Source: a virus
Strand: one strand, 5' to 3'
Virus record (IMG/VR): IMGVR_UViG_3300032820_000047
Span: 1 to 35,052 of that record
Length of the DNA: 35,052 bases
The translations under genes were made by a program, and so were the position numbers. The notes beneath the pieces are model-generated. The model did no database searches. It was given only the letters and a program-made list of their open reading frames with translations, and had not been told where the DNA came from. The first letter of the stretch is position 1; every line of letters begins with the position of its first letter. Below are positions 6 to 29,324 of this stretch, in pieces.

Positions 6-48
6 GTGGTCTCCCTTGTTGAATGGTTACCAATCGCTGTAAATCACT

Positions 49-405: not shown

Positions 406-459
406 TATTCATGAATATTAATCGATTAAGTCGCTGAAAATGCAGGTATTCAATGAATA
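406..459 (-). promoter_or_regulatory. Palindrome cluster overlapping a leftward promoter candidate
   Basis: Three dyads lie within 54 bp: 406-417, 418-429 and 447-459. The first and third share the half-site TATTCA/TGAATA and their centres are about 42 bp apart, close to four helical turns. Read leftward, TTGAAT (448-453) and CTTAAT (425-430) are spaced 17 bp like -35 and -10 boxes, each falling inside a palindrome. That is the arrangement of a repressor-controlled promoter, but both boxes match consensus at only four of six positions, so this is inference. Confidence 0.35.
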
Positions 460-531
460 GTGAATATGCGGGACTGAGGGGTAATACAGCGCCATTTTTG
501 GCATTAGGGCTGCTTATTTTGTGGGGCAGGG

Positions 532-873: not shown

Positions 874-1028
874 GGTGCCCCCTTGTTTGTCTTCCACTGT
901 TTTCGCAGCTGTCTTTTCGCCTTCCACTCCAGAATGCAAAACGAAAAGATCGACGAAGCAATCGCCAGAAAAAAGAGAGAGATAAGCGCGGCGGCGTATC
1001 CAATCAACAAGCACGTCGCCGTTATCAT
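870..1028 (-). CDS. Small membrane protein (52 aa), lysis module
   Basis: A short minus-strand ORF begins at ATG 1028, three bases after the previous stop, and ends at 870 with an ATGA overlap onto the next start. It has a long N-terminal hydrophobic segment (about residues 3-33, including GYAAALISLFFLAIASSIF), then a basic tail rich in Lys, Arg and Trp (KAKRQLRKQWKTNK). This N-terminal membrane anchor plus charged cytoplasmic tail is typical of small holin, antiholin or inner-membrane lysis proteins. Tight coupling on both sides argues that it is translated. It is too short for homology claims. Confidence 0.65.
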   Translation of the reverse strand: MITATCLLIGYAAALISLFFLAIASSIFSFCILEWKAKRQLRKQWKTNKGAP

Positions 1029-1031
1029 TTT

Positions 1032-1295
1032 TTAAGCGTTCTTTTTAAGGCCGGAACCAACGCGGTTACGGTGAGAATCTTTACAATAATATTTAATTTG
1101 AGGTAATTCAACCTGCATCGGTTCGTCGCAATAGGCGCATAACTCCATGCGGATCGCTTCCTTTACATGGACAATCTCAGAGTGTCCATCAGGGTAATTG
1201 AGTTGAAGAGTCAGCATTGAGTCTCCATATTGGCAAATCATGTAAGGGCAATCAGTAACACTACCGGCATGATTCAGCGTGGTGTGGTGATTCAT
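1032..1295 (-). CDS. Small Cys/His protein, zinc-ribbon-like (87 aa or 61 aa)
   Basis: Positioned between two small membrane genes. ATG 1295 overlaps the upstream stop as ATGA. A second ATG at 1217 has a better SD (GGAG, 6-nt spacer) and would give 61 residues; the choice is unresolved. The C-terminal half carries CAYC, then about 16 residues later YYCKDSHRNR, so three Cys and one His could bind a zinc ion as in short phage zinc-ribbon proteins. No enzymatic motif is present. Its place in a lysis module may be incidental; many small phage metal-binding proteins of this type are orphans. Confidence 0.6.
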   Translation of the reverse strand: MNHHTTLNHAGSVTDCPYMICQYGDSMLTLQLNYPDGHSEIVHVKEAIRMELCAYCDEPMQVELPQIKYYCKDSHRNRVGSGLKKNA

Positions 1296-1498
1296 CTCCT
1301 CAGTGTCCTCTTTAGCGCCGGGACAAGGACCGTCACAATCACCATCGCCCCGATCGTCTTCAACTCCGTCTCATCAAAACTCGATGCTGTCAGAAGCAAA
1401 ATCAGCACCAAGCCGCAGATTACCGCGACAAACTGGAGCAAATCCCACAACGGATGTTCGGGATGTGCGATCAACTGTCGAAATGAGGGCTGTTTCAT
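1292..1498 (-). CDS. Two-segment membrane protein, holin candidate (68 aa)
   Basis: The 68-residue product has two hydrophobic segments: about residues 20-40 (LLQFVAVICGLVLILLLTAS) and 48-60 (TIGAMVIVTVLVP). They are separated by a short acidic loop (FDETELK), and the protein ends in a basic tail (LKRTLRR). Small size, two membrane spans, a charged C-terminus and position just downstream of the endolysin fit a class II-type holin, which would form the inner-membrane lesion that releases the endolysin. The neighbouring 57-aa protein is an alternative holin. No sequence family is firmly recognised. Confidence 0.65.
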   Translation of the reverse strand: MKQPSFRQLIAHPEHPLWDLLQFVAVICGLVLILLLTASSFDETELKTIGAMVIVTVLVPALKRTLRR

Positions 1499-1511
1499 TT
1501 TCTCCCAGATC

Positions 1512-1685
1512 TTACTCGCTGCCCCAGAATTTAACAGGCTGACCGGAAATTATCCGCAGCCCGATATTCGCAACCGCAACAATCGGAACGGCCAGCTGGT
1601 CGGGCAGAATGCCGCCAATTGTCACTGCGATACTCAGTAGATTAAACCAGAAAGTCTTGCTCACAAATATGCTTTTCGCTGACAT
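1512..1685 (-). CDS. Holin-like small membrane protein (57 aa)
   Basis: The start is ATG 1685 because AAGGAG precedes it by six bases; the longer open frame to 1793 overlaps the endolysin gene and lacks such a site. The protein opens with KSIFVSKTFWFNLL, followed by a hydrophobic stretch (about residues 13-26) and a second (VPIVAVANIGLRII), ending in QPVKFWGSE. The pattern SKTFWFN...ILPD...VANIGLR resembles a common short phage protein found beside endolysins and thought to act in the membrane at lysis. It follows the endolysin stop by 10 bases, so the two are probably co-translated. Confidence 0.7.
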   Translation of the reverse strand: MSAKSIFVSKTFWFNLLSIAVTIGGILPDQLAVPIVAVANIGLRIISGQPVKFWGSE

Positions 1686-1695
1686 TTGATTCTCC

Positions 1696-2046
1696 TTATC
1701 GAGGGGCCGGCAAGTCGGCCGGCTTGGGTTGATATTCGCAATGATAGTGTATATTGAGGCCTTTCCCGTGCAGAATGACGTCCCAAGTTTCACCTAGGGC
1801 CAGTTCGAGCGATTTTTTAATCATTTTGCGAGCGACATGGGTCAGGTGGTTGGCCCTGAGATCGAAGGCCCACCCGTCGGGGTGCAGGCTGGGTTTCCCA
1901 CGCCGGGGTGGTCGCTGAAACCCCGTGATCGTACAGGTGTCACCCGTGGCGGAAAATACCGCGTCAACCTGTATCAGTCCGAGTAGTATCTGGGGGTGGA
2001 TGACCTTGATGGTGGCTCCGCGCTTGCCTTGCTTGACGTGAATCAT
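1696..2046 (-). CDS. Endolysin, peptidase M15-type (116 aa)
   Basis: Probable zinc peptidase that cleaves peptide cross-links of peptidoglycan. The M15 signature is visible: H55 in SLHPDGWAFDLR with D62 seven residues on, and a second metal site near the C-terminus in NIHYHCEYQ (H100/H102, E104). The length suits a single-domain phage L-Ala-D-Glu or D-Ala-D-Ala peptidase, and no wall-binding domain or signal peptide is present, so export would rely on a holin. ATG 2046 is preceded by GAGGA. It is the first gene of the leftward lysis operon, directly below a terminator-like hairpin in its leader (2057-2089), which may delay its expression. Confidence 0.82.
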   Translation of the reverse strand: MIHVKQGKRGATIKVIHPQILLGLIQVDAVFSATGDTCTITGFQRPPRRGKPSLHPDGWAFDLRANHLTHVARKMIKKSLELALGETWDVILHGKGLNIHYHCEYQPKPADLPAPR

Positions 2047-2056
2047 GGGTCCTCAG

Positions 2057-2089
2057 TAAAAAAGAGCGACACCTGCGAGCGCCGCTCTT
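2057..2089 (-). terminator. Terminator-like hairpin in the lysis-operon leader
   Basis: Read leftward, AAGAGCG (2089-2083) pairs with CGCTCTT (2068-2062) and is followed by a T-run (six T at 2063-2058). The endolysin SD and ATG begin immediately after. Within the loop side, 2077-2087 is itself a palindrome (GAGCGCCGCTC), so an alternative short hairpin is possible. An intrinsic terminator between promoter and first gene would act as an attenuator. The 14-nt loop makes this less certain than a tight hairpin. Confidence 0.5.
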
Positions 2090-2131
2090 AATCATCGGTC
2101 AACGATGGAAGGAGACTGGAGTATATCCTCA

Positions 2132-2174
2132 GGGGCCAACGTCGATTCATGAGAATCACTGGGGCGTCGGCCCC
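2132..2174. other. Large stem-loop in the divergent control region
   Basis: GGGGCC (2132-2137) pairs with GGCCCC (2069-2074 offset by 100, i.e. 2169-2174); after one mismatch ACG (2139-2141) pairs with CGT (2165-2167). Inside it GATTC-ATGA-GAATC (2044-2057 offset by 100, i.e. 2144-2157) forms a perfect 5-bp hairpin with a 4-nt loop. It would be transcribed in the leftward leader if the promoter at 2200-2228 is used. No T-run follows on either strand, so it is not a simple terminator. Confidence 0.45.
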
Positions 2175-2199
2175 CGCACAAGGAGTTACACACGAACAC

Positions 2200-2228
2200 T
2201 TGATAGCCTGAATTCCGTAGAATGTCAA
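2200..2228 (-). promoter_or_regulatory. Leftward sigma70-type promoter candidate for lysis genes
   Basis: On the minus strand a perfect TTGACA (2228-2223) is followed after 17 bp by TATCAA (2205-2200), a four-of-six match to the -10 box. Transcription would begin near 2193, giving a leader of about 146 nt before the endolysin ATG. The 9-mer GTCAACGAT that overlaps this -35 box recurs at 2098-2106, which could be an operator repeat. Confidence 0.5.
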
Positions 2229-2237
2229 CGATCTTCC

Positions 2238-2266
2238 TTGACCCCAACCCCAGAACACGTTAAACC
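2238..2266 (+). promoter_or_regulatory. Rightward promoter candidate for the late operon
   Basis: TTGACC (2238-2243), a 17-bp spacer and TAAACC (2261-2266) form a weak sigma70-like pair back to back with the leftward promoter. The -10 box is poor. If used, transcription would begin at about 2273, the A of the first late-gene ATG, giving a leaderless transcript; this agrees with the absence of an SD sequence there. Confidence 0.35.
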
Positions 2267-2272
2267 CTTCTT

Positions 2273-2590
2273 ATGTCTATCGAAGTAAACCCGAGGAAGT
2301 TTCACCAAGGCGACGTCCGAACGATTACGCTGATTATGGGCGAAAGTCTGGCCGGATGGAGCGCCTCGCAGTTCACCTTTAGCCTGACCCGGCCCGACGG
2401 CGGCACCGTGGCGATGACGTCCAGCCGGACCGTTGTGGATGCGACCACCGGGCAGCTCTCGGTGAAGTCGGTTGCAGGGGACTTCGACGAGAACGGCACG
2501 TACTTACTTCAGGTCGCCACCACCACCGCGCCCGCACGGAGCTGGCCCCACGTCAGTCTCAGAGTTCACGGCAATACCACACCACCCTAG
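2273..2590 (+). CDS. First late-operon protein, Ig-like/beta-rich (105 aa)
   Basis: The protein is predicted to be mostly beta: GDVRTITLIMGESLAGWSAS, then FTFSLTRPDGGTVAMTSS, GQLSVKSVAGDFDENGTYLLQV and a final strand HVSLRVHG. This alternation, with the PDGG turn and DENGTYLLQV edge, resembles the small immunoglobulin-like domains found in phage accessory and baseplate-associated proteins; a BppU-type N-terminal domain is one possibility. Function is unknown. An in-frame TAA lies 12 bases upstream of ATG 2273 and there is no SD, so the start is well fixed but initiation is unusual. The stop abuts the terminase ATG directly. Confidence 0.65.
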   Translation: MSIEVNPRKFHQGDVRTITLIMGESLAGWSASQFTFSLTRPDGGTVAMTSSRTVVDATTGQLSVKSVAGDFDENGTYLLQVATTTAPARSWPHVSLRVHGNTTPP

Positions 2591-4237
2591 ATGCCGACGC
2601 ACGCTGACGATCTGATCAAAGAGATCGCCCAGGCAACAGGCGTGCCTGAGGCCGATGTCGTGCGTGCCGCCCGGAAGCGGAAGCGAGAAATCGATAGCGT
2701 GGCTGCCGACTGTGACCGGGTTCTCAACGATCCTCACGCATGGTTTACCGAAGTCATTACGCCCCCCGAGTACCAGCGCCGCGTGGGCGCACTCCAACAC
2801 GAAATGATCGACTTCATTACCGACAAGAAGTGGATGTGGAAGTTGATGCTGGTGCCGAGAGAGACCGTAAAATCGCACACGATCACGATCGGTGAGGACC
2901 TGCGATCCGCCGTCAAAGACCCCAACATGCGGATCATGATCGACCACGGGGTGCGGGATAAGAGCGCACTGTTCCTCGGCGCTATTAAGGGTAAGCTGGC
3001 GAGCGCGCAGGTTCAGGCCCGCTTCGGCAACCTCCTGCCCACCTCCAGTAACCGGCAGCACCGCAACAACGCCTTCCAGCTCGACCTGCTCACCCGCACC
3101 GATACGTCAATCAAGGAGGCTACGTTTACCGCGTCCGGTTGCGGGGTGAGCGAGGCGGGGAATCACTTCGACCGGATCGTGGCTGACGATCTGGTGTGTG
3201 AGGATAACTCAGGGGAGTTTGCCACGCCGGAATCGCTGGAGTCGCCCATCAGGCGTTTCGAAGCCTATGTCGACCTGCTCGACAAAGAGCATGGCGAACT
3301 CTGGTGTATCGGCACCCGATGGAACCCGCTCGACTGCTGGCAGCACATCATCGATACCTTCTGCGACCCCCACTGCAAGACAGACGACGGCCAGTTTCTC
3401 AGCCACGCCCCTAACTGTACCTGCGACTTCGACGTGTCGGTGCGGGAGCTGAAGGAAGATGGGGAGTACATCTACCCGGAGATATGGACCGCAGAGAAGG
3501 AGGCCCGCACCCTTCGGGCCAAAGGGCCATACGGGTTTTCCTGCCATTACCTGAACAACCCGACCGATCCGATCAATTCATGGTTCAACCCGTCAAGCAT
3601 CGAAGCCTGCCTCTACGACGACGAGCAGTTTGCCGAAGAATTTGACCGGCCGATAGGGGAGCATTATCGTGAGTGCAACTGGTATCTGGCGGTGGATCCA
3701 GCCGAGTCGAAGAAGAAAGGCAGCTCGTCGACTGCCGTGGTGAGCGTGGCTCAGGACGCCACCGGGATGTGGTGGGTCGATCAGGCGGTCAAGAAGAAGG
3801 CCGATACGGGTGAATTCGTCGATCTCTGCATCCGGCAGCACAAACTTATTTCAACCCAATATGATCGGGTGGGCATGTTCGGGATGGAGCAGAATACCCG
3901 GAAGTCGCTGGCCTACGCGCTCCGTGTTCGGATGACGCAACTGGACTACCATTTCGGGATCCGCGACCTCGCTCCCGACACCCAGGGCGGCCCGGAAGCC
4001 AAGGAGCGTCACATTAAGCGAATACAGATTTTATTCCAGTTCAACAAGATCCGGATCCACCGTCGCTGCCGGGATCTGATCCGATTGCTGAAGAATCTTC
4101 CGGCAACAAAATTTCGAGATCTGGCCGACGCTCTCGCGTATGTCATGGACATGACCCCGCCAATCGAGCAAAATACCGGCGACGAGATTGGTCTGCCGGA
4201 CTTTGCTGAAGAACAGTTTGAGGGGACTGGCTACTAG
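2591..4237 (+). CDS. terL: Terminase large subunit (548 aa)
   Basis: The motor ATPase and headful/end nuclease that packages DNA into the prohead. Visible motifs are a deviant Walker A (about 89-97, PRETVKSHT), Walker B DRIVADD (194-200), a coupling-type motif CIGTRWNP (239-246), and the RNase H-like nuclease acidic residues D369 in YLAVDP, E433 in FGMEQN and a late Asp in FRDLADALAYVM. Length is normal for the family. An extra Cys/His cluster (C258, H261, C262, H272, C276, C278) lies between ATPase and nuclease and could bind metal. It begins immediately after the preceding stop, implying translational coupling, and the portal gene follows after 9 nt. Confidence 0.93.
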   Translation: MPTHADDLIKEIAQATGVPEADVVRAARKRKREIDSVAADCDRVLNDPHAWFTEVITPPEYQRRVGALQHEMIDFITDKKWMWKLMLVPRETVKSHTITIGEDLRSAVKDPNMRIMIDHGVRDKSALFLGAIKGKLASAQVQARFGNLLPTSSNRQHRNNAFQLDLLTRTDTSIKEATFTASGCGVSEAGNHFDRIVADDLVCEDNSGEFATPESLESPIRRFEAYVDLLDKEHGELWCIGTRWNPLDCWQHIIDTFCDPHCKTDDGQFLSHAPNCTCDFDVSVRELKEDGEYIYPEIWTAEKEARTLRAKGPYGFSCHYLNNPTDPINSWFNPSSIEACLYDDEQFAEEFDRPIGEHYRECNWYLAVDPAESKKKGSSSTAVVSVAQDATGMWWVDQAVKKKADTGEFVDLCIRQHKLISTQYDRVGMFGMEQNTRKSLAYALRVRMTQLDYHFGIRDLAPDTQGGPEAKERHIKRIQILFQFNKIRIHRRCRDLIRLLKNLPATKFRDLADALAYVMDMTPPIEQNTGDEIGLPDFAEEQFEGTGY

Positions 4238-4246
4238 GAGGCACCG

Positions 4247-6418
4247 ATGAAAATCTTTGAAGTAGACCCGCATGTCCCCGTCGAAGAGGCGGGCTTCCAG
4301 CAGGAAGAGGAATACCAGCGCAGCTCGGACCCGACCGATCCGATAACAGGCTTCGCCCCGCCCGCGTTCACGCCTCTCTATGACCGCACCCAGTCTGAGA
4401 AGGACGACATTGTCACCCAAACACTGGAACGGTTTCGTGAGTCCCGTGATGAAATGAGCCTCCATTACCCACGGATGATCGCCAGCTACCGGAAGTACAG
4501 GTCAATAGCGAAGCCCTTAAAGAACCGACTGGGCAAGAAACTCCGCGCTCGCGCCAACCTGTTTGTCCCGTATCCGTGGGCCATTGTCGAAAGTGAAATG
4601 CCCCGCCTCGCCGGCCGGCTACCGCGCATCAAGGCGTTTCCAAGGAATCCCGGAGCCCGCGTTAAGGGCGATGCGATACAGGATCTCCTGTTTTATACCT
4701 TCGACCGCATGAGCTTTATCCAGCTCCAGATCCTCTGGCTGCGGCAGCACTCCCTGTACGGATTCAGCCCGCTTCTGGGGTTCTGGCGGCAGGAAGAAAA
4801 GAGGGTGTTCGCACGGAGGGTGGACGAAGAAACCGGAGAAGAAGAGGTGGTCGCGGAAAACCAGACCACTTACGACGACTTCTGGTGCCGCCTGATCGAC
4901 TGCTTCGACAGCTTCCATCAGCCCGGCGTCGAGAAGTTCGAGGACGGGGACTGGTATGAATATCGGGAGTGGTATTCGGCTCAGGACATCCGGGCTCGGG
5001 TCGATGCCGGAGTCTTCTATCCCGACACGCTCGACTACCTCGAAGACAACCTCTCAGGGCAGCGGTTCTCAGACGAAGGTTCCGGTAAATTCGAGCGCGA
5101 CGAACTCGCCAAGTTCCAGGGCAACCTCGGTGTCCACGGATACGGCAAGCACGAATGTCTCTGGGTACTGGAAGACGGACAGGTTCACGCCGTATTAAAC
5201 CGGCAGCACCTTGCCCGCAGCGGTGACAACCCGAACCCCCTTCAGGAAAAGCCCATATTCAACGTCACATTGATGCCTGCGGTCAGTGAGCCGATCGGCA
5301 TGAGCACGATCGATCAGATGGCGGGGCTGCCTGAGAAGCTCAATGCGCTGACCAACGCCCGGATGGACAACATCGCCCTGATGATGAACCGGGTTATTTT
5401 AGCCGACCGCTTCTCCCAGACAGACTTCTCGAACCTGTTCATGTCGCCCGGAAATGTCATTCTCACCGACAACGTCGACAAGGCGGTCAGGGTGCTGGAC
5501 TTCCCCGACATCGGCCAGTCCAGTGAGCGGGAGATCCTTGTCACCAAGGAAGAACTCCAGTTTGTGAACGGGATTAGCGACTTCATCGTGGGTGTGAAGA
5601 CCAAGTCGCGGCTGGCCGACACCGCGACCGGAGTCTCCACTATCGTGAGGGAAGCGAACGCCCGCTTCGCCCTGAAGCTGGCTACTTTTGAGGCGGGGCC
5701 GCTTCGTCGTCTGGTCAATACCGCCCACGCCTACAACATGGTCTACATGCCGAGGGATAAACAGATTTTCATTTCCGGCCCGAAAGGCTATGAGATGCGG
5801 CACGTCAATATCGAAGAGATCCTGTGCCAGTGCGACCTGATCATCGAGCCCGGATCGACGGTCCCGCTGGACCAGATCTCACGCAGAGAATCGCTGGCAT
5901 CCCTGCTGGATCGGGTGATGCGGGCACCGCAGGTCATCGACCAGACCCGGTACTGGAGCGAGACATTTGCCGCTCACGACATCCGAAACCCCGGAGAGTT
6001 CCTGCTCCAGAAGGAAGGTCCCCTGCCTGAGGCTGAGGACGCCCAGCTGGCCGAGGGCGAGAATGTCGCGTTGCGTCAGGGCCAGCCCGTCGAGGTGGTG
6101 GGTAATGACCGGATCCATCTGGCGATCCATACCCGGCCTATCGAGAACGGCGAGATTAACAACTGGGATGAGGAGGCTCGCTCCAGGCATGAGTCGCATA
6201 TTCAACAACACACCAGCAAGATGATCGCGTCCCGGACTCAGGCGCTTCAGGCTGGTCAAAACTCTATGTTTGGAGCTGCAAATGGACAACCCGGCCCAGA
6301 AGGAAGCGGCGGATTATTCGGAGGAGCTGGCCCAGTTCAAGGCGAATCTGGCATTCCCGCCGGAGTTGGCGGGCCGATTGATGCGGGTGGACAAGGAGAC
6401 GTGGCGGGTTCTCTCTGA
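4247..6418 (+). CDS. Portal protein (723 aa)
   Basis: Assigned from its place after the large terminase and from the portal-like N-terminus: RFRESRDEMSLHYPRMIASYRKYRS, the RARANLFVPYPWAIVESEMPRL stretch and a conserved acidic/aromatic core (WLRQHSLYGFSPLLGFWR). Portals form the dodecameric ring at one capsid vertex through which DNA passes. Length of about 720 residues matches podovirus-type portals rather than the shorter siphovirus ones. ATG 4247 has a near-perfect SD (AGGAGGCACCG). The last 46 or so residues form a glycine/proline-rich tail read in a different frame from the next gene, an overlap of 137 nt; this tail is atypical and may be disordered. Confidence 0.88.
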   Translation: MKIFEVDPHVPVEEAGFQQEEEYQRSSDPTDPITGFAPPAFTPLYDRTQSEKDDIVTQTLERFRESRDEMSLHYPRMIASYRKYRSIAKPLKNRLGKKLRARANLFVPYPWAIVESEMPRLAGRLPRIKAFPRNPGARVKGDAIQDLLFYTFDRMSFIQLQILWLRQHSLYGFSPLLGFWRQEEKRVFARRVDEETGEEEVVAENQTTYDDFWCRLIDCFDSFHQPGVEKFEDGDWYEYREWYSAQDIRARVDAGVFYPDTLDYLEDNLSGQRFSDEGSGKFERDELAKFQGNLGVHGYGKHECLWVLEDGQVHAVLNRQHLARSGDNPNPLQEKPIFNVTLMPAVSEPIGMSTIDQMAGLPEKLNALTNARMDNIALMMNRVILADRFSQTDFSNLFMSPGNVILTDNVDKAVRVLDFPDIGQSSEREILVTKEELQFVNGISDFIVGVKTKSRLADTATGVSTIVREANARFALKLATFEAGPLRRLVNTAHAYNMVYMPRDKQIFISGPKGYEMRHVNIEEILCQCDLIIEPGSTVPLDQISRRESLASLLDRVMRAPQVIDQTRYWSETFAAHDIRNPGEFLLQKEGPLPEAEDAQLAEGENVALRQGQPVEVVGNDRIHLAIHTRPIENGEINNWDEEARSRHESHIQQHTSKMIASRTQALQAGQNSMFGAANGQPGPEGSGGLFGGAGPVQGESGIPAGVGGPIDAGGQGDVAGSL

Positions 6419-6641
6419 GGTTATCGGACTCAAGCGCCGGATCGCTTTACAGCAATTAGAAGTGCCGACGCCGGAGGAAACCCGCGAAGAATTTACCGAC
6501 CGATGCCTCGGTCTGCGTGCCAGCCTCAAGACCCTCAGCAACATTCAAACCCTCCCCGAACAAGGGGAGGGTATCGTCCTAGAATGGGAGCTTGTTCAGG
6601 CCCAAGCCAGAGGCGATATGCCTATCGATGTCGAGGAATAA
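6282..6641 (+). CDS. Small head-morphogenesis-region protein (119 aa)
   Basis: Starts at ATG 6282 with GGAG six bases upstream, inside the portal gene; the first 137 nt overlap the portal C-terminus in another frame. The product is a largely helical, charged protein (YSEELAQFKANLAFPPELAGRLMRVDKETWRVLSEVIGLKRRIALQQLEV) ending in an acidic tail (MPIDVEE). No family is recognised. A location between portal and scaffold suggests a chaperone or minor head protein, but this is inferred from order only. The good SD and sensible helical composition argue against it being a shadow. Confidence 0.72.
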   Translation: MDNPAQKEAADYSEELAQFKANLAFPPELAGRLMRVDKETWRVLSEVIGLKRRIALQQLEVPTPEETREEFTDRCLGLRASLKTLSNIQTLPEQGEGIVLEWELVQAQARGDMPIDVEE

Positions 6642-6681
6642 ATTGACTCACCCCACACACTTCAGTTAAAAGGGAGACACT

Positions 6682-7527
6682 ATGGCAGACGAAATGGATG
6701 GAACCGCAACCGATACGTTAGTTCCTTCAGAGGAAGACGAGGCCCTGTTCGGCGATAGCGATCAGGGAAGCGGCGAAGGTTCAGGCGACGGAGATGTGGC
6801 GGCCCCCGACACGGCCAGCGACGTTGACGGCGAAAGTGATGGAGCATCGGTATCAACCGACGCGACCGCGACTGCATTGCGGAAGCTCGGTATTGAGAGT
6901 GTCCAGGAAGTGGCGGAGCTTCAGAAGGGAAGGGCGGAGGCCTCAGTATCGGACCCCCGGATTGACGCGATGGAAGCGAAGCTCTCAGCCCTCGGACCTC
7001 AATTAGCGGCAGCCGCCGCTGGAAGGCCGGCAGGCTCGACAGCGACTCCAGCCGAAACCGAAAAGTTCCTCAAGGAATTCCTGCTTAATCCGCAGGGCTC
7101 ACTGACTGCTGTAAGCGCGAAATCTACACGCGACGCGATCCAAGAGGCGATGAAACCTTACGTCCAGATGGTCGAAGGGATGAAGGATGACGCTATCGTC
7201 AACGAGTTTGCCATCCGTCCTGGCACCGGGTTTATCCCGGATCAGGACACGGCTGTTCTTAACAAGTTCCTTGTTGAAAATCCCTACATCGGTGGATCTG
7301 CCGATCCGCTGGGGGACGCATGGGAGCTGGTTAAGGCGAAACGGCCGAAGTTCTACGCCAAGAGGGCCAACGCTGCTGCGTCCAAAGCCAACCAGAGCGC
7401 GATGAAGAAAGCCGCGGGTATGGGGGGAAAAGGGACCGCAGTCACCTCGAAGGCCGATGGCGGGGGTGGTGACGAATTTGATGGCGTACTTGATCGCGCC
7501 GAAAGGATTCAAAAGGCCTTCAGCTAA
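6682..7527 (+). CDS. Scaffold-like protein (281 aa)
   Basis: Sits directly before the major capsid gene with a good SD (AAGGGAG). The N-terminal 60 residues are strongly acidic and low-complexity (SEEDEALFGDSDQGSGEGSG), the middle is helical, and the C-terminus is basic (VKAKRPKFYAKRANAAASKANQS) before a short acidic end (DEFDGVLDRAERIQKAF). Acidic N-terminus, helical middle and basic capsid-binding C-terminus are the usual features of podovirus scaffolding proteins that direct prohead assembly and then leave. No protease motif is seen. The identification rests on composition and position. Confidence 0.75.
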   Translation: MADEMDGTATDTLVPSEEDEALFGDSDQGSGEGSGDGDVAAPDTASDVDGESDGASVSTDATATALRKLGIESVQEVAELQKGRAEASVSDPRIDAMEAKLSALGPQLAAAAAGRPAGSTATPAETEKFLKEFLLNPQGSLTAVSAKSTRDAIQEAMKPYVQMVEGMKDDAIVNEFAIRPGTGFIPDQDTAVLNKFLVENPYIGGSADPLGDAWELVKAKRPKFYAKRANAAASKANQSAMKKAAGMGGKGTAVTSKADGGGGDEFDGVLDRAERIQKAFS

Positions 7528-7541
7528 GAGGAACTTTACCC

Positions 7542-8711
7542 ATGGCAACTGTCAACACAGGAACACGCGGAACCAAGCTGGTCACCGGCACAGAGAACGT
7601 CAATGTACGCGACGTCTCTGAACGGATACTCCTGCTTCAGCCCAACGCCGCTCCACTGATCTCGTATCAGGCGGGCATGGGCGCAAAGAAAGTCGCATTC
7701 AACCCCACGTTCGAGTGGCTACAGGATGAACTGTCGCCCAATACCGTCACCGACTCGGGTGGTTCCGGTACAGGGACCACGATCAACCTCACCACAAACG
7801 AGGGTGGGTATGTCCGGCCGAACGACGTACTGATCGCTCCCAACGGGGAGTCGATCCATGTCACGTCCAAATCAACAGACGCACTGACTGTTCAGCGGTC
7901 AATGGGCTCGGTTGCTGCCGACGACATCGCGACAGGCGAGCAGTTCGTAATCATCGGGCAGGCGGTGCAGGAGGGATCCGACATCCCGTCCTACCGTCAC
8001 ACCGAGCAGGTCACGAAGACTGGTTATATCCAGATCTTCAAGGACCCGGTGATACTCACCGAGATACAGAACGCCACGAAGTCTTACGGCGGACCCGACC
8101 GGACCAAGAAAAGGATGCTGGCTGCAATCGAACACAAGCGTTCGATCGAGCAGGCGTTTCTTTTCGGTGATGCGTTCGAGCAGACCTCCGGCACGCAGAC
8201 GCTCCGAGGTACGGGCGGGCTGATCAACGAGATCAGCACTAACGTCCTTGCCGCCGGTGGCGTTCTCAGTGAGTCGGACTTCACCGACAGCTTCCTTGTC
8301 GACGTGTTCCGGTATCAGCCGGAAATTCCGCTCGACACGAAGCTGGCGTTCTTCTCTCCCATTCTGATCGCCGCGATCAACTCATGGGCGAAGGGCGCAC
8401 TCCGGATCACGTCCAACGAGAAATCGTTTGGCGTTAAGATCGGTACCTATGTCTCAGCTCATGGTGAGCTGAAGATCATCCGGCATTGGCTCCTGAAGGA
8501 TTTCACGGAGTTCCAGAAATACGGATTCGTTGTGGATCCGCAATTTACGAGCTACCGCTTCATGGACGGGCTAGACACGAAGTTACACGTCAACACCCAG
8601 GCCGATTCCGTGTCGTCCATTCAAGATGAATACCGCACCGCCTGTGGACACCAGCTCGGGCTGGAGAAGGCGCACGGTGTTATCTCTGGAGTGACTGGAT
8701 ATGCAGCCTAA
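7542..8711 (+). CDS. Major capsid protein, SU10/HK97-fold type (389 aa)
   Basis: Forms the icosahedral shell. Recognised from family-like features of SU10-type (DUF5309) capsid proteins: an N-terminal NVRDVSERILLLQPNAAPLIS, then VAFNPTFEWLQDELSPNTVT, a beta-rich YVRPNDVLIAPNGESIHVTS segment, the helix IEHKRSIEQAFLFGD, and the C-terminal LKIIRHWLLKDF...LDTKLHVN. Length fits. ATG 7542 follows a weak SD (GAGGAAC). The stop overlaps the next gene by 11 nt. It follows the scaffold-like gene, as usual for podovirus head modules. The exact family name would need a profile search. Confidence 0.85.
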   Translation: MATVNTGTRGTKLVTGTENVNVRDVSERILLLQPNAAPLISYQAGMGAKKVAFNPTFEWLQDELSPNTVTDSGGSGTGTTINLTTNEGGYVRPNDVLIAPNGESIHVTSKSTDALTVQRSMGSVAADDIATGEQFVIIGQAVQEGSDIPSYRHTEQVTKTGYIQIFKDPVILTEIQNATKSYGGPDRTKKRMLAAIEHKRSIEQAFLFGDAFEQTSGTQTLRGTGGLINEISTNVLAAGGVLSESDFTDSFLVDVFRYQPEIPLDTKLAFFSPILIAAINSWAKGALRITSNEKSFGVKIGTYVSAHGELKIIRHWLLKDFTEFQKYGFVVDPQFTSYRFMDGLDTKLHVNTQADSVSSIQDEYRTACGHQLGLEKAHGVISGVTGYAA

Positions 8712-9333
8712 CGGCGCAGCTGAGGGGGCTAAGGCCCCCTCCCTCTCTTGCGATTATTGCGACCACGCTCCGTTCAAGAATTCAGGCGGACTGAAGTCGC
8801 ACGTCCGATTCAAACACCCCGACCAATCCGCCTCTGTAGGCACCACCGCTCCGACCGTAGAAGAACTCAGCGAGCGAGTCGACAGCCTCATGCTGTTGCT
8901 GGAGAAGGCGGGCGCACAGCCGCTAGGCGTGGAAGAAAGCACGTTTACGCCGCCGAACTATCGCGCTCCCAAGCGTGTCATGTTCTTATCACCGAGGTCT
9001 CCGGGCCTGACGGTGATTGTGATGCGAAGTCATCGGCAGCTCGTACCTATCGGCCCCGGGCTGACAGAGTCGATTCTCATGCCGGGTGTGACCGTGCAGT
9101 TTGTGGCCGGACGACTCTTTACTGACGACGCCCGTGTGATCGCTTTCCTTAGTGGCGACCGTGACGAGTGTTTACGGCTCGGCATCATGGATGAGCAGCA
9201 CCCCGGACACCCGAAGGTCTATCAAAGCGATCGGTACCCTGTTATCGGAAGCGACGTGGCCGGAGATGTTCCGATCTCACGAAAAGTCACCGAGCCTGAA
9301 GCGGCGGCGCGGGCCTCAGCCAATCCTGGATAG
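8701..9333 (+). CDS. Capsid-adjacent protein with N-terminal C2H2 zinc finger (210 aa)
   Basis: Overlaps the capsid gene's end by 11 nt. Residues 17-39 form a C2H2-like finger: C17-x2-C20-x13-H34-x4-H39, with the hydrophobic spacing (F25, L31) typical of classical fingers. A short helix follows (TVEELSERVDSLMLLLEKAG). The rest (from about 80) is beta-rich with VTVQFVAGRLFTDDARVIAFL, resembling a small structural domain often coded beside phage capsid genes (strand, glycine, TDD, then a helix ending in FL). A head decoration or completion protein is likely, but the role of the finger is unknown; it may bind packaged DNA or a host factor. Confidence 0.7.
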   Translation: MQPNGAAEGAKAPSLSCDYCDHAPFKNSGGLKSHVRFKHPDQSASVGTTAPTVEELSERVDSLMLLLEKAGAQPLGVEESTFTPPNYRAPKRVMFLSPRSPGLTVIVMRSHRQLVPIGPGLTESILMPGVTVQFVAGRLFTDDARVIAFLSGDRDECLRLGIMDEQHPGHPKVYQSDRYPVIGSDVAGDVPISRKVTEPEAAARASANPG

Positions 9334-15760: not shown

Positions 15761-18700
15761 TTGGCAGTTCAGGCCATCCAAGACCCGGCCCGGATACAAC
15801 GCGCCAGAGCGCGCGTGGAGGCGCTCGCCCGGATACAACGCGCCAGAGCGCGCGTGGAGGCCCTAAAGACTCCCGAGACTCCCGAGACTCTCGCGGCAGA
15901 GGCGCCCCCATCTGACGTTCCTCCCGTCGCAACGGGCCGACCTGGACACCTCGCCACCATGCGCGCGGCGCGCGGCCGACGAGGAACTCCCGCAAGAGAA
16001 TTCACACCAACAACCGGAGAGACGCTTCCTCCGCGTGCGGGCGGCGAAGAGCTTGCAGCTTTGAGGCGGCAACAAGAACAGATCGGCGCTGCCGAACGCC
16101 GCGCCATGACCAGCCTCGAAGCGAGGACTGAAGGCTTCGCGACACCCCGGATAGGCCCAGCAACCGGAGACGAAGTGCGGATCCCAGTCGCCGAGTTGCC
16201 CCGTACCAGCGCACGAACTCCCGACACCAGAGGCAACACCGAGCGAATTCTCACAGCGTTCGTCGGTGGGTTGGCGGGTGGCTTCGGCGAGGACATGTCT
16301 AAGTTCAACCCGCTGATGAAGGCAAACGAACCGCATGAATCGTTCGTGGCCCGGACACTGACCGAGACCATACCGGGGTTCGCGGGTGAGGCCGGACGTA
16401 TAGCGATCATCCTGAAGATGCTCCCCGGGCTGGCTCCAAAATTCGGAGGCGAGGTTGCCGCGAATGCGATCGCCAAGGTCAAGAGAATCCTGATGAATGG
16501 TGGGAAGGGCGCGATCGAAGAAGCCTTCAACGTGGCCCTTCGACCGGTCGACAGAGTCGACGACCTCAGGTGGGGAGCGGAGAAGGTTGAGGGACTGCTT
16601 GGCGTAGACATCCCGTCGCTAGGCATTGAACGGAGCACGGGGGCGAAGCCGCCTGACTATAAAAACATGATGATGCGGGTGGGCCTCGGCGGCTTGGCCG
16701 GGGCAGCCGTTCCGGCGGGCGTTGGGGCGGTGCAGAGGCGGCTGGCCGAACGCTCGTCGAGAAGATCAGTCGAAGGATTGAGGGCGAGCGTGGGGACGGC
16801 AGGCGATGCTGAAACTGCGGCAGGTGCCGGGCCTCAGTACCGTGGCTCCTCGGCCGCTGAAACGCTAGGAGAGATGGCGCGGGAGGCAGGCAGTATTCCT
16901 CCACCGGTAGACGAGTCAGCCGCAGCAAGGCTCATGAATCTCTACAGGCGTTACGCTGGCGGCGAGAGCGATGAAGCCCTGTCGGGAACCGCGCAACACA
17001 CCGACGCTGAGATCGATATGATCAACGCCCTTAGGGCCAAACGCGGCCTTAGGCCGCTTCCTTACAAAGAATACATTCCGCCGGAACGGCAACTCCCCGC
17101 CGCTGGAGAATCCACCGAGGCGCTGCTCCGGGTCCAGAAGTTCCAGCCAAGCAGCGAGGTCCGGCCCCTGAAACAGCCGGTACTGATACCCAAATACGCA
17201 TCGGGGAGATTGCCTTTGGAGCAAAGGCTTCTGCCTCCAGACGCGGCTACAGGCCCTGTCATCACTCAGGCCGACAAGGTCGTCCCGTTGACGCGAGAGG
17301 CGGCAATTGAATCGTTGACGCAGTCGGGCATGGTAACGGGCAGAGCTGTGACGGAAGAGGCTATCCAGGAGGTGATGCAGCGGTCAAGGAAACACGGACG
17401 GTTCACGAAACTATTTCGAGGAACCGGTGAGGACGTTGTCCCGGGCGAACTCAGGCCCCGAGGTCCGGACACGCCGGAGGGGACGTTCGGCTTCCAGCAG
17501 ACAGGCGACATCGTCCCGGCGTTCTCGCGATCCGACGAAGCGTCCACGTTCATCAGGAGCGACATCGAGGAGATGTCCCGGGGCGGTAGCCAGCGGTGGA
17601 GGCTCAGACTCGACGAGGAGGGTGTGGGGATATCATCGATGCTTAGAAGGGCGGGCATGACCCAGAGGGGCGACAAGGTTGTCTCTGGTGGGGACCGGAT
17701 AATGCGCCATCATGGCGACATCTACGTCATGGAAGTTACGCAACCGCTGCGGAGACCGGGGGGTGAAGACCTGGCCTTTTCTCAGGAAACACTGGGCATC
17801 CCGATGACTCGGCAGGAAGCCATTGAACGGTTGACGCAGTCGGGCAGAGATGAAACGGAAAGCAATATCAGGGCGTTGATGGGGACGCCAACACGCACGG
17901 TCCGGTTCCGGGTCCCACCCGGGGAGAGCTTAGAGGATGCGGTCGCCGAGGTGCGGCGGGTGGTCAATGAACCGTCGGCCCTCGATACAGCCCTCGAAGC
18001 TAGCAGTAATGCTGAACTTAGACAGGCCGTCGAGGCGTCAGCCGAGTACGGCGAGGCGCAGCTGGGGCGTGATGCTGCTCGTCGCGCCGAACGCACGCAG
18101 AGGGATTGGGATGAATGGAACCAACGCTACGGAAGCGTAGCCGACCCGGGCCGTCAGCCACCCCCGCCCCCCAGACCGCCCAGACCGCGCGGCGTGCGGC
18201 CAACTACGCGACCGCCAGGCGAAACCCCAATGCTCGACCGGCTGTATGAGAATGTACAGACCGGAGTTACAAGGAATGTGGAGAACCTCACACCGTCCGA
18301 TGCGGCGGACTATCTCGCAGTACTGGAAGACTACGTGTTGACGCGGCCGGGCAAGCAGTCAACGGTCGGTGGTGCCCGCTTCTCAGGTAGGACTTTCAAT
18401 GAATTGGACGATGTTTCGCAGGACAGAATCAGAGCGGAAATGCTGCGTCTTCGTGAGGTCATACCTGAGGACGCAGCGTCAAAGGCTCGCGTCAGCGCGG
18501 ATGCCGCAGCCAGGGATGTGAGCGCCGGACTTTCCCCCGAGGACGTGAAGCTCGCTGGAGTCCGTGAGGTCCCGAAGCAGAGAGGAGTCAACCCCGACCT
18601 GCCAGAGGGTGGTGGGGCGGTGGATCCGCTGCCGCCCGCGGGGCAAGCCTCGGGCGCACCGCCGCCGATCGGCACGCGGCCTCCGGAGACTGGAGGGCGG

Positions 18701-24107: not shown

Positions 24108-24866
24108 ATGGCAATCTATGACAATTTAATTTCTTATTGGGAACTTGAAGAATCATCAGGGACTCGTGCAGACTCACACGGGTCAAATCACCTAACCGAC
24201 AACAACACGGTTGCACAGGCAACTGGCAAGGTAGGCGAAGCTGCTGACCTCGAAACGTCTAACAGTGAATACTTAAGCATAGTACCCGGCGCTGACTTAC
24301 AGGTTGGAGATGTAGATTTCACTTGTTGCGGATGGATAAATATTGAAGCTGTTGGGACCACCTCCGGTCGCTTCATAGTTGGACAATGGGCGAATGCTGG
24401 CCCAAGCGATGATACCGATTCGTGGTATGTGAACTTCCGAGATCATCCTTCAGACGGCGATGACTTTTCATCTTCTATTTCCACTGACGGTGGAACTCTC
24501 GTTGGATTTGATGACGGCGGTGGACACGGAGCGGGTACTTGGTTTTTTCTGGTTCTCTGGTTTGATTCCACAGCCAATACCTGGAATCTGCAAGTCGATA
24601 ACGGGACCATTACTAGTGCAGCGACAGGGTCAAACGCTCCATCAACGACTAATACGCCCTTCACACTTGGCGCACACGCAGGTCCAGGCTCTTACTTTGA
24701 TGGACTTTTAGATCAATGGGGTTTCTGGAAAAAAGTTCTTTCGTCGGCGGAAAAAACATTTCTTTACAATAGTGGAAATGGTCGAAGCTATGCAGATTTA
24801 GGTGTTCCATCGGGAGTTAAGTCCCCTTCAGGCGGTGTAGCTATTGGGCACACTCCATTTTATTAA
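24108..24866 (+). CDS. LamG/concanavalin-like lectin-type tail protein (252 aa)
   Basis: The protein opens with ISYWELEESSGTRADSHGSNHLTDNNTVAQATGKVGEAADLE, the standard start of LamG-type (concanavalin A-like) jelly-roll domains, followed by CCGWINIE...FIVGQWAN, WFFLVLWFDSTANTWNLQVDNG and FDGLLDQWGFWKKVLS. These match the edge strands and the final strand of the domain. Phage LamG domains usually sit in tail proteins and bind glycans. Only one domain is present, so it is probably a receptor-binding or fibre-tip accessory. It lies within the AT-rich segment. Confidence 0.8.
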   Translation: MAIYDNLISYWELEESSGTRADSHGSNHLTDNNTVAQATGKVGEAADLETSNSEYLSIVPGADLQVGDVDFTCCGWINIEAVGTTSGRFIVGQWANAGPSDDTDSWYVNFRDHPSDGDDFSSSISTDGGTLVGFDDGGGHGAGTWFFLVLWFDSTANTWNLQVDNGTITSAATGSNAPSTTNTPFTLGAHAGPGSYFDGLLDQWGFWKKVLSSAEKTFLYNSGNGRSYADLGVPSGVKSPSGGVAIGHTPFY

Positions 24867-25125: not shown

Positions 25126-25353
25126 ATGACTTTCATCGCTAAGGATTTCAAGGAAACACGGACGGTTCATGGGAGATGGACCTTCATACCTCAACAGCTG
25201 TTTCTGTCTCCGCTCGGTCCTGGAGTTTACACTGAGGCCACCTTACCGGCCGCCTCTAATCACGCTTACACGTTAATCGTCGTGTCTGATGGAACCAGCG
25301 GCACCAACATGGTTCGATACAGCGATGGTACGTCATGGCTGGCCCTTGGATAA
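25126..25353 (+). CDS. Small tail/fibre-type domain protein (75 aa)
   Basis: Residues about 38-75 (ATLPAASNHAYTLIVVSDGT...MVRYSDGTSWLAL) match a short beta motif frequent at the ends of phage tail proteins, where a LPAA segment is followed by VVSDG and SDGTSWL. The first part is short and basic. ATG 25126 comes two bases after the coiled-coil gene's stop. The end overlaps the glycosyltransferase start region. It may be a fibre-tip or assembly domain coded as a separate protein. Confidence 0.65.
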   Translation: MTFIAKDFKETRTVHGRWTFIPQQLFLSPLGPGVYTEATLPAASNHAYTLIVVSDGTSGTNMVRYSDGTSWLALG

Positions 25354-25975
25354 ATTAAAAGTCTTTCTCACCATCCCCAACCTCGGATGGATCCACGACG
25401 ACTTGGTCGACTTCATCGTTTGGATGCTTCAGGACCCGCACGAGATCCAGCTGTACCGACCCAGAAACTTCCGTCCGACGGAATCGATGCGACAGCACTG
25501 TATGGCCTCGTTCCTTGCGACCGACTGCGACATCTGGTTCTCTGTGGACAACGACAACGCGCCGTGCCTTCCCGAAATCATCAACATTGCCGACGAGAAC
25601 CTCCCGATCGTAGGATTTCCGACCCCGTGTTACGACACAGACACCGGATCGATCAGTCTGAACTGCTACGACATTGTCAAGGGAAAGCATGTGCCCCGGA
25701 CTCACGGTGAAGGGCTTCAGGCGGTGAGTGCGATCGGTGGTGGGTGCTTCATGGTGCGGCGTGACGTGGCCGCGAAGGTCCTCGATCAGCAACCGTTCCG
25801 GCCTGAGATGGACGACTACGGCCGTATCACTGTGAGCGAGGACCTCGTGTTCTCTCAACGTGTACGGGAGGCGGCCTTCCCGATCCACGCTCACTTCGAT
25901 TATCCCTGCCATCACCGGAAGACAGTGGATCTGCTCCAATTCGTAGCCAAGATGACCGAGGAATGGCAAGCCTAG
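25346..25975 (+). CDS. Phage GT-A glycosyltransferase-like protein (209 aa)
   Basis: The N-terminus LDKLKVFLTIPNLGWIHDDLVDF and the segment CDIWFSVDNDNAPCLPEIINIA resemble GT-A fold glycosyltransferases found in phages; the DND triad would act as the metal/nucleotide-sugar motif. Downstream it keeps FMVRRDVAAKVL and EDLVFSQRVREAAFPIHAHFDYPCHH. Start is ambiguous: TTG 25346 fits the family-like start; ATG 25325 would add seven residues; neither has an SD. It is the last gene before the convergent operon, 8 nt away. It could modify virion or host glycans, by inference. Confidence 0.68.
   Translation: MDKLKVFLTIPNLGWIHDDLVDFIVWMLQDPHEIQLYRPRNFRPTESMRQHCMASFLATDCDIWFSVDNDNAPCLPEIINIADENLPIVGFPTPCYDTDTGSISLNCYDIVKGKHVPRTHGEGLQAVSAIGGGCFMVRRDVAAKVLDQQPFRPEMDDYGRITVSEDLVFSQRVREAAFPIHAHFDYPCHHRKTVDLLQFVAKMTEEWQA
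25347..25370 (+). repeat. 24-bp exact direct repeat, copy 1
   Basis: This 24-mer at the glycosyltransferase start (core AAATTAAAAGTCTTTCTCA) is repeated exactly at 34149-34172, nearly 9 kb away and in the same orientation. It is AT-rich against the neighbouring DNA and encodes DKLKVFL here. Confidence 0.9.
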
Positions 25976-26902: not shown

Positions 26903-27381
26903 CCAAGATCCTCCGAATGTCTGGAGCTGACCAGCTGCCATAGGGCGACACCGACACTACGCGGCCCTTGACGTATTGTCGATCGACCCAGAACCCGCCA
27001 CAGCCTGTATATCGGTTGCGAGTGGTCGATTATCCCCGTGTCATGTATGAGTGGCTTGTCCCGAATCTCCAGCGACATCAACATCGTCTCGGCCTCTTCA
27101 AAAGTGGCAAGCTCCGGCCCCTTGTGCGACGTGGTATGTCCATGCTCAACCGTGATGAAGTACAGGGCCGGGTCGGCCGGTGGGTTGAAGTCTGCCGGTG
27201 ACATATTCAGCGGCGGCCGGCCTCCGCGTTCGCGTGCCTTTGACACGAAGGTATCGATGGCTTCTTGTGGATCCTCGACGTGCGGCTGGAACTCAGCGAC
27301 CCCGGTGTCCATCATCGTTGTCACCATGTAGAGTTCCCGCAGTCGGGACGCTCTGTGGATCCGTTCATTCAGCAACGGCAT
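26899..27381 (-). CDS. Hypothetical protein (160 aa)
   Basis: ATG 27381 is chosen because AAGGAG precedes it; the longer frame to 27399 has no such site. Its first 17 nt overlap the TPR gene's end. The protein shows TMMDTGVAEFQPHVEDPQEAIDTFVSKARERGGRPPLN, then EHGHTTSHKGPELATFEEAETMLMSLE and a basic C-terminus. The helical EAIDTFVSK and ATFEEAETML segments are reminiscent of small phage accessory proteins, but no family is recognised. Confidence 0.62.
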   Translation of the reverse strand: MPLLNERIHRASRLRELYMVTTMMDTGVAEFQPHVEDPQEAIDTFVSKARERGGRPPLNMSPADFNPPADPALYFITVEHGHTTSHKGPELATFEEAETMLMSLEIRDKPLIHDTGIIDHSQPIYRLWRVLGRSTIRQGPRSVGVALWQLVSSRHSEDLG

Positions 27382-28345
27382 ATTGCTTCTCCTTTCCAAA
27401 GTAACCCTCGTCGTAGAGGGTCGTCATAAGTTGCCAGTGAGAGAGCTGTGTCTCCAGCCACTCCCAACTCTTAGTCTCGGCGACCCGACACAACCCGGCG
27501 TAACAGGAGTCATGGTCTCCGATTTCGAAAAGACAGATCGATCGATTCAGCTCGGCGATCTCTGACCCTCCCTTGTTCAGTGCGTTATCGAAGGCCATGA
27601 TCGCCTCACTGAATTCATAAATGGTCATCAGGTACAGGCCCCTGCTTGTATGGAGGTGAGGCTCATCGGGCCACGCGTCAAATCCTATTGCGATTGTTTT
27701 CTTTGCGGACCCGGTCTTGCCTTGCATGAGGTATAGACGGGTGAGGTTGCTAATAATCTTCGGCCAGTCCGGGTGGATTTTCTTCGTGAGCGACAAGGCT
27801 TTCACCATCACGGACTCCATTTCCCTGTCATCGATTCCCTTCCGCAACCGGGACGCGTAGTTGAGCAGCACCCGCACTTTGTTTGGACTTTCCTTCACGG
27901 CTTGAGACCAGAACACGGTCTCGTTGCGGTAGGCGAACGCGCGGAATACGGAAAGAGCCATCCACAGCACGACGACGACGCACGCCAGCCGCCACGGCAA
28001 CCACGCCACAGCTAGGGCGGCGCCGGCAGAGGCGAAGTACCCGCGCATTTCCATGACGTAGTCGGATATATTGACGACGGTGTATCCCAGAAGCGGAGAG
28101 CAGAACATCAAGACAAGGGCCAAAGCCAAAGGCAGCGGCCCCCACAGGATAATGACACCGGCCACAATGAAAACCGGGATCATCAGCGGAGGCCGCCCCT
28201 TCAGGTTAATCTCTGTCTCGTCCGGGTCCAGCTTCGTGTTGAGTCCGAAGACCGCCCCGCTGTACAAGAAGTGCCAGAGCATCCGATAGGATGGGTAGGC
28301 ACGCCAGAGATAACCGATCTGGTGGCCGAGGTGCGGGAGTTTCAT
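27365..28345 (-). CDS. Membrane protein with C-terminal TPR repeats; partner of the GT-C protein (326 aa)
   Basis: ATG 28345 overlaps the preceding stop (ATGA), so it is coupled to the GT-C gene. Residues about 55-145 carry hydrophobic spans (LMIPVFIVAGVIILWGPLPLA, VMFCSPLLGYTVV, LACVVVVLWMAL) and the family-like segment DYVMEMRGYFASAGAAL. From about 170 follows a helical TPR-like region: WSQAVKESPNKVRVLLNYAS, LTRLYLMQGKTGSAKK and SEAIMAFDNALNKGGSEIAELNRS. Membrane spans followed by TPRs match the second half of TMTC/DUF1736-type O-glycosyltransferases, where the TPRs bind the protein acceptor. Here the gene is separate from its first half. Confidence 0.62.
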   Translation of the reverse strand: MKLPHLGHQIGYLWRAYPSYRMLWHFLYSGAVFGLNTKLDPDETEINLKGRPPLMIPVFIVAGVIILWGPLPLALALVLMFCSPLLGYTVVNISDYVMEMRGYFASAGAALAVAWLPWRLACVVVVLWMALSVFRAFAYRNETVFWSQAVKESPNKVRVLLNYASRLRKGIDDREMESVMVKALSLTKKIHPDWPKIISNLTRLYLMQGKTGSAKKTIAIGFDAWPDEPHLHTSRGLYLMTIYEFSEAIMAFDNALNKGGSEIAELNRSICLFEIGDHDSCYAGLCRVAETKSWEWLETQLSHWQLMTTLYDEGYFGKEKQYAVAE

Positions 28346-28944
28346 AGTCGGACCCACAGCACGAAGGCCACGCCGGCCAGCAACGCCGGAGCGACGATAC
28401 CTTCTTGCTTGGTTCGCATGGCGCACGCCCCCGATAGCGTTGCCCAGATCCCGTGACCTGAGAACGCCAGCACCAACATTCCCATCAGGAATGTGGAACA
28501 CAGCGTCGAGCTTCGACCTGAAGGCGTGATGACTGCAGTGGTATTGAGCCGATTCACACCCCACCCGATACCGGCAAGTATCGCCATGCTCTCGGATGCG
28601 AACAGACCCACGAACCAGTAGAACAACACGGCGTTGAAGCCGTGGATAAGCAGGTTTACCGCCATCCAGCCTTGCCGGTTGTCGCCGAAAAGGGCGACGC
28701 ACACCCTGTACGACCACGTCAGAATCAGCCGGTCATTGGCGATGGCCGCGATGATGGCCTGAGCCCACGACGGGCTCTCACGGTCGACGCTGCCTGTCCG
28801 CTTCTTGTTGTCGAACAATGTCTTCTTGGAATATACGATGCTAGCCCCGTCAAGTCCGATTATTGCGCCCGTAACCCACACCGGTATGTAAGGCAGAATC
28901 GCCGCTAAAGCGATCAGAAGTTCAATCGGTAAATTTATATTCAT
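28342..28944 (-). CDS. GT-C-type polytopic glycosyltransferase first half (200 aa)
   Basis: Begins at ATG 28944, overlapping the previous stop (ATGA), with GGAG four bases upstream. Multi-span hydrophobic protein: residues 3-30, 95-120, 123-165 and 180-198. The segment DRLILTWSYRVCVALFGDNRQGWMAVNLLIHGFNAVLFYWF closely follows the RPL-x-LSY...LFG-NP...NLLLHxxN pattern of TMTC/DUF1736-type membrane transferases, and SSTLCSTFLMGM and CAMRTKQEGIVAPALL resemble later conserved blocks (GR-xxLL, KE-G). The acidic loop motif usually DD appears only as LDG. Together with the TPR gene it would make one bipartite glycosyltransferase. Confidence 0.62.
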   Translation of the reverse strand: MNINLPIELLIALAAILPYIPVWVTGAIIGLDGASIVYSKKTLFDNKKRTGSVDRESPSWAQAIIAAIANDRLILTWSYRVCVALFGDNRQGWMAVNLLIHGFNAVLFYWFVGLFASESMAILAGIGWGVNRLNTTAVITPSGRSSTLCSTFLMGMLVLAFSGHGIWATLSGACAMRTKQEGIVAPALLAGVAFVLWVRL

Positions 28945-29324
28945 CGCACTCCAAATACGCGCTCCAGTGCGCGTCTTTTAAGCTCCTTCTGAATGTGCCG
29001 GGTCACTCCGGGCTGGTCCACGCTGATACCTCTCGACTGAAGCTCTTGAGCGATAGCCTCTGGCCCAAGGCCCTTCTCCCACAGTGGGATAACGGCGCGA
29101 CGTGTCGGACCTCTCTGACGGTACAGCTTGACAGGGCGATGGATGCGTTGCAGCCATGCCCATATCGCAGACTTGGTGGTCGGCAGTACCGGGAACCCAC
29201 CGCAGGTTCGGATCCAATTCTCGATGGAGCGGAGGGTGTAGCCGACCAGCTCCCCCGCTTCTCTCTGGCTGTAGACGAATGCGCGATCCTTCAGCGGTCG
29301 CTTGTCTGTGGTGTTATGTGGCAT
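28941..29324 (-). CDS. Two-HTH DNA-binding protein (127 aa)
   Basis: ATG 29324 overlaps the RusA stop; the frame further up is only TTG-initiated. Residues about 20-45 (YSQREAGELVGYTLRSIENWI) look like an excisionase/MerR-type or Nu1-like helix-turn-helix, and residues about 85-115 (WEKGLGPEAIAQELQSRGISVDQPGVTRHIQ) give a second HTH. Such two-HTH proteins occur as phage regulators and also as small terminase subunits, so this is a rival candidate for the missing small subunit. A basic C-terminus (KELKRRALERVFGVR) supports DNA binding. No clear SD is seen. Confidence 0.66.
   Translation of the reverse strand: MPHNTTDKRPLKDRAFVYSQREAGELVGYTLRSIENWIRTCGGFPVLPTTKSAIWAWLQRIHRPVKLYRQRGPTRRAVIPLWEKGLGPEAIAQELQSRGISVDQPGVTRHIQKELKRRALERVFGVR

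Follow-up and report, generated by a model that had tools for sequence, protein, structure and literature searches.

The gene pair and its surroundings

The window, that is the whole stretch of viral DNA analysed here, comprises 35,052 nucleotides (IMG/VR record IMGVR_UViG_3300032820_000047, positions 1 to 35,052). Its minus strand carries two adjoining genes, and both reading frames and their overlap were found in the sequence as the original prediction had placed them. Gene A (P0001, 28342–28944, 200 aa) encodes the TM1-6 half of a GT-C/TPR-type protein, as judged by a profile match and an AlphaFold2 model. Gene B (P0002, 27365–28345, 326 aa) encodes later membrane spans, the EL5 motif and TPR repeats, as judged by a profile match, AlphaFold2 and Foldseek. 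The predicted division into a polytopic half and a second half with membrane spans followed by TPRs is thus borne out. The stop codon of gene A and the start codon of gene B share an ATGA at 28342–28345, and a second ATGA at 28941–28944 joins the stop of an upstream HTH gene to the start of gene A, both on the minus strand, as are all features of the pair described below. By eye, a GGAG at 28949–28952 is the probable ribosome-binding site of gene A. Gene B is preceded by a weak GGG only, which, together with the GGAG of gene A, fits translational coupling of the two genes; the gene downstream of gene B is preceded by AAGGAG.

A second contig, L003, matches positions 4–9281 of the window at 99.98%. 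Its positions 127–5281, approximately 5.2 kb, are absent from the window and link the window's last 126 bases to its start, which gives a phage genome of about 40.2 kb. The plus strand carries genes for terminase, portal/head-tail adaptor, major head and internal virion proteins. The pair lies on the minus strand together with RusA-like, exonuclease-like and IstB/DnaC-like genes, and its earlier placement in a phage early operon is therefore reasonable.

Homology to bacterial TMTC-like proteins

Direct scans of Pfam, NCBIfam, PHROGs and PDB sequences gave no significant match for gene A or gene B. Since these searches were empty, a gapless signature was read from the sequence and used to scan the DNA of bacterial and archaeal genomes. 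In its canonical form, R-P-L-x12-G-x4-G-[FYW]-H-x2-N-x3-H, it retrieved 113 proteins, almost every one of which has DD in its first loop. A family profile of 664 positions was built from 89 of these, all bacterial TMTC-like GT-C/TPR proteins. Gene A matched profile positions 91–223 with 59.8 bits (E = 1.4e-17) and gene B matched positions 319–566 with 81.9 bits (E = 3.2e-24); residues 1–160 of gene B, mostly without TPRs, scored 32.3 bits alone. All other ORFs in the window scored below 4 bits. Plain shuffles (1,000) reached at most 8.3 bits, and 2,000 shuffles that kept the hydrophobic/polar pattern reached at most 9.6 bits for gene A and 14.4 bits for gene B. Because the bacterial set was collected with this signature, its R, P, L, G, H, N and H were bound to be present, and independent evidence comes from the other conserved positions only. 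Four homologues found without the signature motif were also read. At the level of sequence, the homology of both halves to consecutive parts of one bacterial family is firm, and neither product was placed in an unrelated membrane family by the profile or structure searches.

Among the family members in alignment A1, the membrane part matched PMT_2 in 24 of 40 at E 0.01 and PMT in 7 of 40, and TPR families were matched behind the membrane part in the bacterial members. A PMT-type membrane part followed by TPRs is also the architecture of TMTC proteins (PMC7801869). The pair had been assigned to the TMTC/DUF1736 type. Homology to TMTC-like GT-C/TPR proteins upholds the first part of that assignment; the second fails, with PF08409 (DUF1736) matched neither by the pair nor elsewhere in the window and with several conserved positions lost. 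Neither gene exceeded the curated cut-offs of PF13231 (PMT_2) and PF02366 (PMT). By profile and alignment, the pair is a diverged two-gene GT-C/TPR relative and not a canonical TMTC/DUF1736 member.

The family had been described as normally one long protein, and its bacterial relatives almost always are. Gene A alone was run by tblastn against 388 genomes from the phylum to which L067 (an Opitutaceae MAG) belongs and gave 14 matches, every one of them in an open frame (552–926 aa); the same search of 398 genomes of another phylum gave none. When eight genomes were searched with alignment A1, nearly all strong matches lay in frames of at least 400 aa, and one copy carried a stop. The one-piece form is therefore the rule in cells. 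One Bacteroidales genome (L061, G012) contains 25 TMTC-like matches, many in tandem.

The phage pair is homologous, in consecutive order, to bacterial TMTC-like proteins (PMT_2 and TPR; e.g. L083, L072, L067) over TM2-6, TM8-11, the EL5 motif, the linker and the TPRs. In contrast to the pair, these are single proteins of about 500–900 aa with DD, RP and KE motifs and a longer TM7/EL4. With animal TMTC1-4 the pair shares the order of parts, a membrane GT-C portion with an N-terminal acidic loop and the EL5 arginine, then TPRs (PMC7801869). The animal proteins are O-mannosyltransferases formed of one chain with 11 TMs, DD, SHKSYRP and DUF1736 (PMC7801869), whereas the pair has no PF08409 match.

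The junction between the genes

There are no stop codons within the gene A frame or the gene B frame. Codon bias trained on other genes of the same phage favours the gene A frame before the junction and the gene B frame after it. Over the final 70 codons of gene A this signal is weak and does not decide between frames; homology still backs the gene A frame there. Programmed -1 frameshifting at the junction was considered and rejected, as by eye no slippery heptamer precedes the stop.

It is very unlikely that the split arose from an indel, made in assembly or sequencing, in what is really a one-piece gene. A sequencing frameshift in a decayed gene had been named at the outset as one of the observations that would undo the original prediction, and it is disfavoured. 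One contig only covers the junction and the relatives are one-piece, which leaves room for such an error; however, homology continues up to the point where gene A stops, the other frames conceal none there, and a single indel leaves the missing segment of 36 residues discussed below unexplained. The junction ATGA also equals the ATGA before gene A. This last point is a weak one, because ATGA at a TGA stop is not rare by chance.

Conserved and lost positions

Residue equivalences were taken from alignments A1 and A2 and from column counts over the 89 bacterial proteins. In gene A, family residues R88, N113, H117 and K206 are kept as R72, N97, H101 and K179. The codon of R72, the R of the family RPL, lies at 28729–28731 (column counts and A1); NLLIH, residues 97–101, is the family N-x3-H motif (28642–28656; A1); and K179, the conserved K of loop EL3, is encoded at 28408–28410 (A1). 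In gene B, Y369 and the EL5 arginine are kept as Y103 and R101. Both lie in EMRGY (residues 99–103, 28037–28051; A2), which corresponds to the family E[HR]RxY motif of loop EL5, so that the MRGYF segment singled out originally does belong to a family motif. The linker YRNETVFWSQAVKESP (residues 139–154, 27884–27931), recognised by profile and alignment, represents the family W-x6-W...P segment. The TPR repeat region occupies residues 157–292 (27470–27877) according to the family scan, AlphaFold2 and Foldseek.

The pattern SY...LFG...NLLIHxxN, cited in the original prediction, was right with respect to NLLIH and had SYR in the wrong register. Reading SYR (residues 79–81) as the family [SY]YRP needs an 8-residue deletion and was rejected; the family arginine is R72, in DRLI, which fits without a gap over 30 residues ending in N-x3-H, and many BLAST alignments start from R72 too.

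Several conserved positions are lost in the pair: P89 is replaced by L, P150 by R, and E207, the glutamate of KE, by Q. The EL2 acid, present in 63 of the 89 bacterial proteins, is S in the phage. DD, found at each position in 87 of 89, is cut to D32 alone (codon 28849–28851; A1), in agreement with the reduction to LDG that had been pointed out. The register of D32 is ambiguous by one residue: without a gap it equals the second Asp, and MAFFT sets it on the first Asp with a one-residue gap. Bacterial members with a single acid exist (L016, L065, L149) and are otherwise normal; LDG is thus no proof of inactivity.

In the phage, 124 residues separate K206 from Y369, as compared to 128–232 in bacteria (median 160, n = 89). 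This distance is shorter than in 89 of 89, and against the bacterial median the region around TM7/EL4 lacks approximately 36 residues. It follows that TM7 and part of EL4 are absent, or that TM7 has shrunk to the gene B helix at residues 11–32, which is weakly hydrophobic and of low model confidence. The TPRs would be periplasmic if TM7 is present; without TM7 the orientation of gene B is uncertain.

In the sequence, the retained ligand-site residues and the open frames point to function, and the lost acids and missing segment to reduction. Carried further, the latter would suggest a captured one-piece gene in decay, split and shortened, its products inactive and on the way out. The split, the TM7/EL4 deletion and the loss of several conserved positions all fall in one gene pair, for which no relatives show that it is maintained. 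Yet decay seems unlikely: both frames are free of internal stops and show the codon bias of the phage along their length, the overlaps on every side are short, and R72, K179 and R101 are retained.

Structural models

AlphaFold2 models were made of single chains with family alignments. That of gene A had a pLDDT of 87.9 and a pTM of 0.84; the corresponding values for gene B were 77.4 and 0.74, with the TPR part confident. In Foldseek searches of the PDB, the gene A model resembled STT3 (6ezn_F, query TM-score 0.57) and PglB (5ogl and 6gxc, 0.49–0.50), in each case with E > 1. The PDB matches listed for it at a query TM-score of at least 0.49 were GT-C enzymes only. With E-values above 1 and a model built on the family alignment, this structural likeness is support and not proof. 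Compared with the solved GT-C enzymes ArnT, PglB and STT3, gene A is alike to the latter two by TM-score, with no sequence match. The gene B model matched TPR proteins. In BFVD the best confident match of the gene A model was A0A514K2W1, a protein of 326 aa from a Nitrosopumilus spindle-shaped virus (probability 0.98, TM 0.64), perhaps another short viral GT-C-like protein.

Relatives in other phages

Close relatives of the pair were found neither in IMG/VR scans nor by tblastn of the GenBank phage collection, and a first DNA motif scan of viral contigs gave chance matches only. It had been proposed to look for the same split pair in other phages; searches of phage, viral and bacterial sequences found no split-form relative. 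A relaxed motif scan of viral contigs, with the family profile, revealed one-piece TMTC-like genes in two other uncultured phage lineages. One lineage (L136/L131/L130) has such genes at L136 6756–8447 (plus strand) and L131 1–1455 (minus strand), with P22-like portal, coat and major-tail genes as neighbours; the other has one at L133 7327–9123 (minus strand), near terminase and SPP1-like portal genes. The three long one-piece phage copies scored 342–502 bits against the family profile, and the DD and KE motifs are intact in L136 and L133. When two of the one-piece phage proteins were compared by tblastn with 50,697 GenBank phage records, no TMTC-like gene was detected, and a literature search for phage TMTC/GT-C proteins found nothing relevant.

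These proteins share with the pair a location on phage contigs and a match to the same profile. They differ in being single ORFs beside virion genes, while the pair consists of two ORFs away from them. In L136 and L131 the one-piece genes lie between coat/portal and tail genes, and in L133 beside terminase/portal. This position might suggest that the pair glycosylates virion proteins and not the host surface, and the window also holds a phage-type glycosyltransferase-like gene (25289–25975). A virion target is nevertheless highly improbable. The virion genes are on the other strand, the pair is grouped with genes for replication and recombination, and the active site of GT-C enzymes faces the periplasm, whereas capsids and tails assemble in the cytoplasm. 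Where the genes lie and which side the active site faces make modification of the host envelope the likelier of the two.

Possible function

The explanation that we favour, tentatively, is that the two halves of a diverged bacterial-type TMTC-like protein form a two-subunit inner-membrane glycosyltransferase that alters the host envelope. Both halves would enter the inner membrane of the host and come together as one GT-C fold. TM1-6 with D32, R72 and K179 would be contributed by gene A; gene B would add the later spans with R101 and, on the periplasmic side, a TPR domain. With the TPRs holding a periplasmic or exported acceptor, the complex may transfer to it a sugar taken from an undecaprenyl-phosphate donor, thereby modifying the host envelope during infection. 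The likeliest benefit would be the blocking of superinfection, since the pair sits with replication genes and not with virion genes.

In favour of this explanation are the kept ligand-site residues R72, K179, R101 and one D, whose roles are read from PMC7801869, the consecutive profile homology, the PMT_2/PMT and TPR matches of the family, the ATGA coupling and the coding bias, the one-piece phage relatives with intact motifs and the GT-C likeness of the gene A model. Counted against it are the changes in one Asp of DD, P89, P150, the EL2 acid and E207, the loss of about 36 residues, the failure to find a split-form relative or to recognise a GtrB-like synthase among the genes tested, and Foldseek E-values that are not significant. 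The fuller proposal of a working two-subunit GT-C enzyme, its fold split after TM6 between coupled genes, the second with TPRs, and modifying the host envelope, is doubtful.

It is distinctly unlikely that the pair is a non-catalytic membrane scaffold, in which the GT-C/TPR shape binds an envelope or transport protein, for example in superinfection exclusion, with no sugar transfer. The reduction of active-site acids while fold-type residues and TPRs are kept would suit such a role; the donor-binding R and K are kept, however, and single-acid forms occur in the otherwise normal bacterial members L016, L065 and L149.

Phage Gtr serotype-conversion glycosyltransferases are polytopic membrane transferases that probably draw on a bactoprenol-linked sugar. 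They are accompanied by GtrA and GtrB and lack a TPR domain. The pair would resemble them as a phage-coded, here putative, polytopic membrane transferase, but the neighbours tested, which covered small ORFs and the absent 5.2 kb in part, included no recognisable GtrA or GtrB-like donor synthase.

TMTC-type transferases are known from animals and many bacteria, the bacterial ones being largely uncharacterised. An active split pair would show that two separate halves can make up a GT-C fold, a help in dissecting the donor and acceptor sites, and would give phages another means of altering the host surface. An inactive one would be an enzyme fold that the phage has reduced to a membrane scaffold.

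Other features of the phage genome

The glycosyltransferase-like gene at 25289–25975 (P0003, plus strand, 228 aa) has a weak match to phrog_34859, a phage glycosyltransferase family (E = 2.6e-6), and carries a D-N-D motif, with no Pfam, PDB or phage-record matches; it is a possible partner of the pair. Window positions 24108–24866 (plus strand) encode a protein with a LamG/concanavalin-like domain (PF13385, E = 3.6e-14), and in the L136 phage, too, a LamG protein is encoded downstream of the TMTC-like gene. An exact 35-base direct repeat is located at 15788–15861, near the start of a gene for a 1525-aa protein. Contig L003 encodes, at 363–1577 (minus strand), a 404-aa protein with SCHTDTVH, a motif that by the look of the sequence resembles those of M20/M42-type metallopeptidases.
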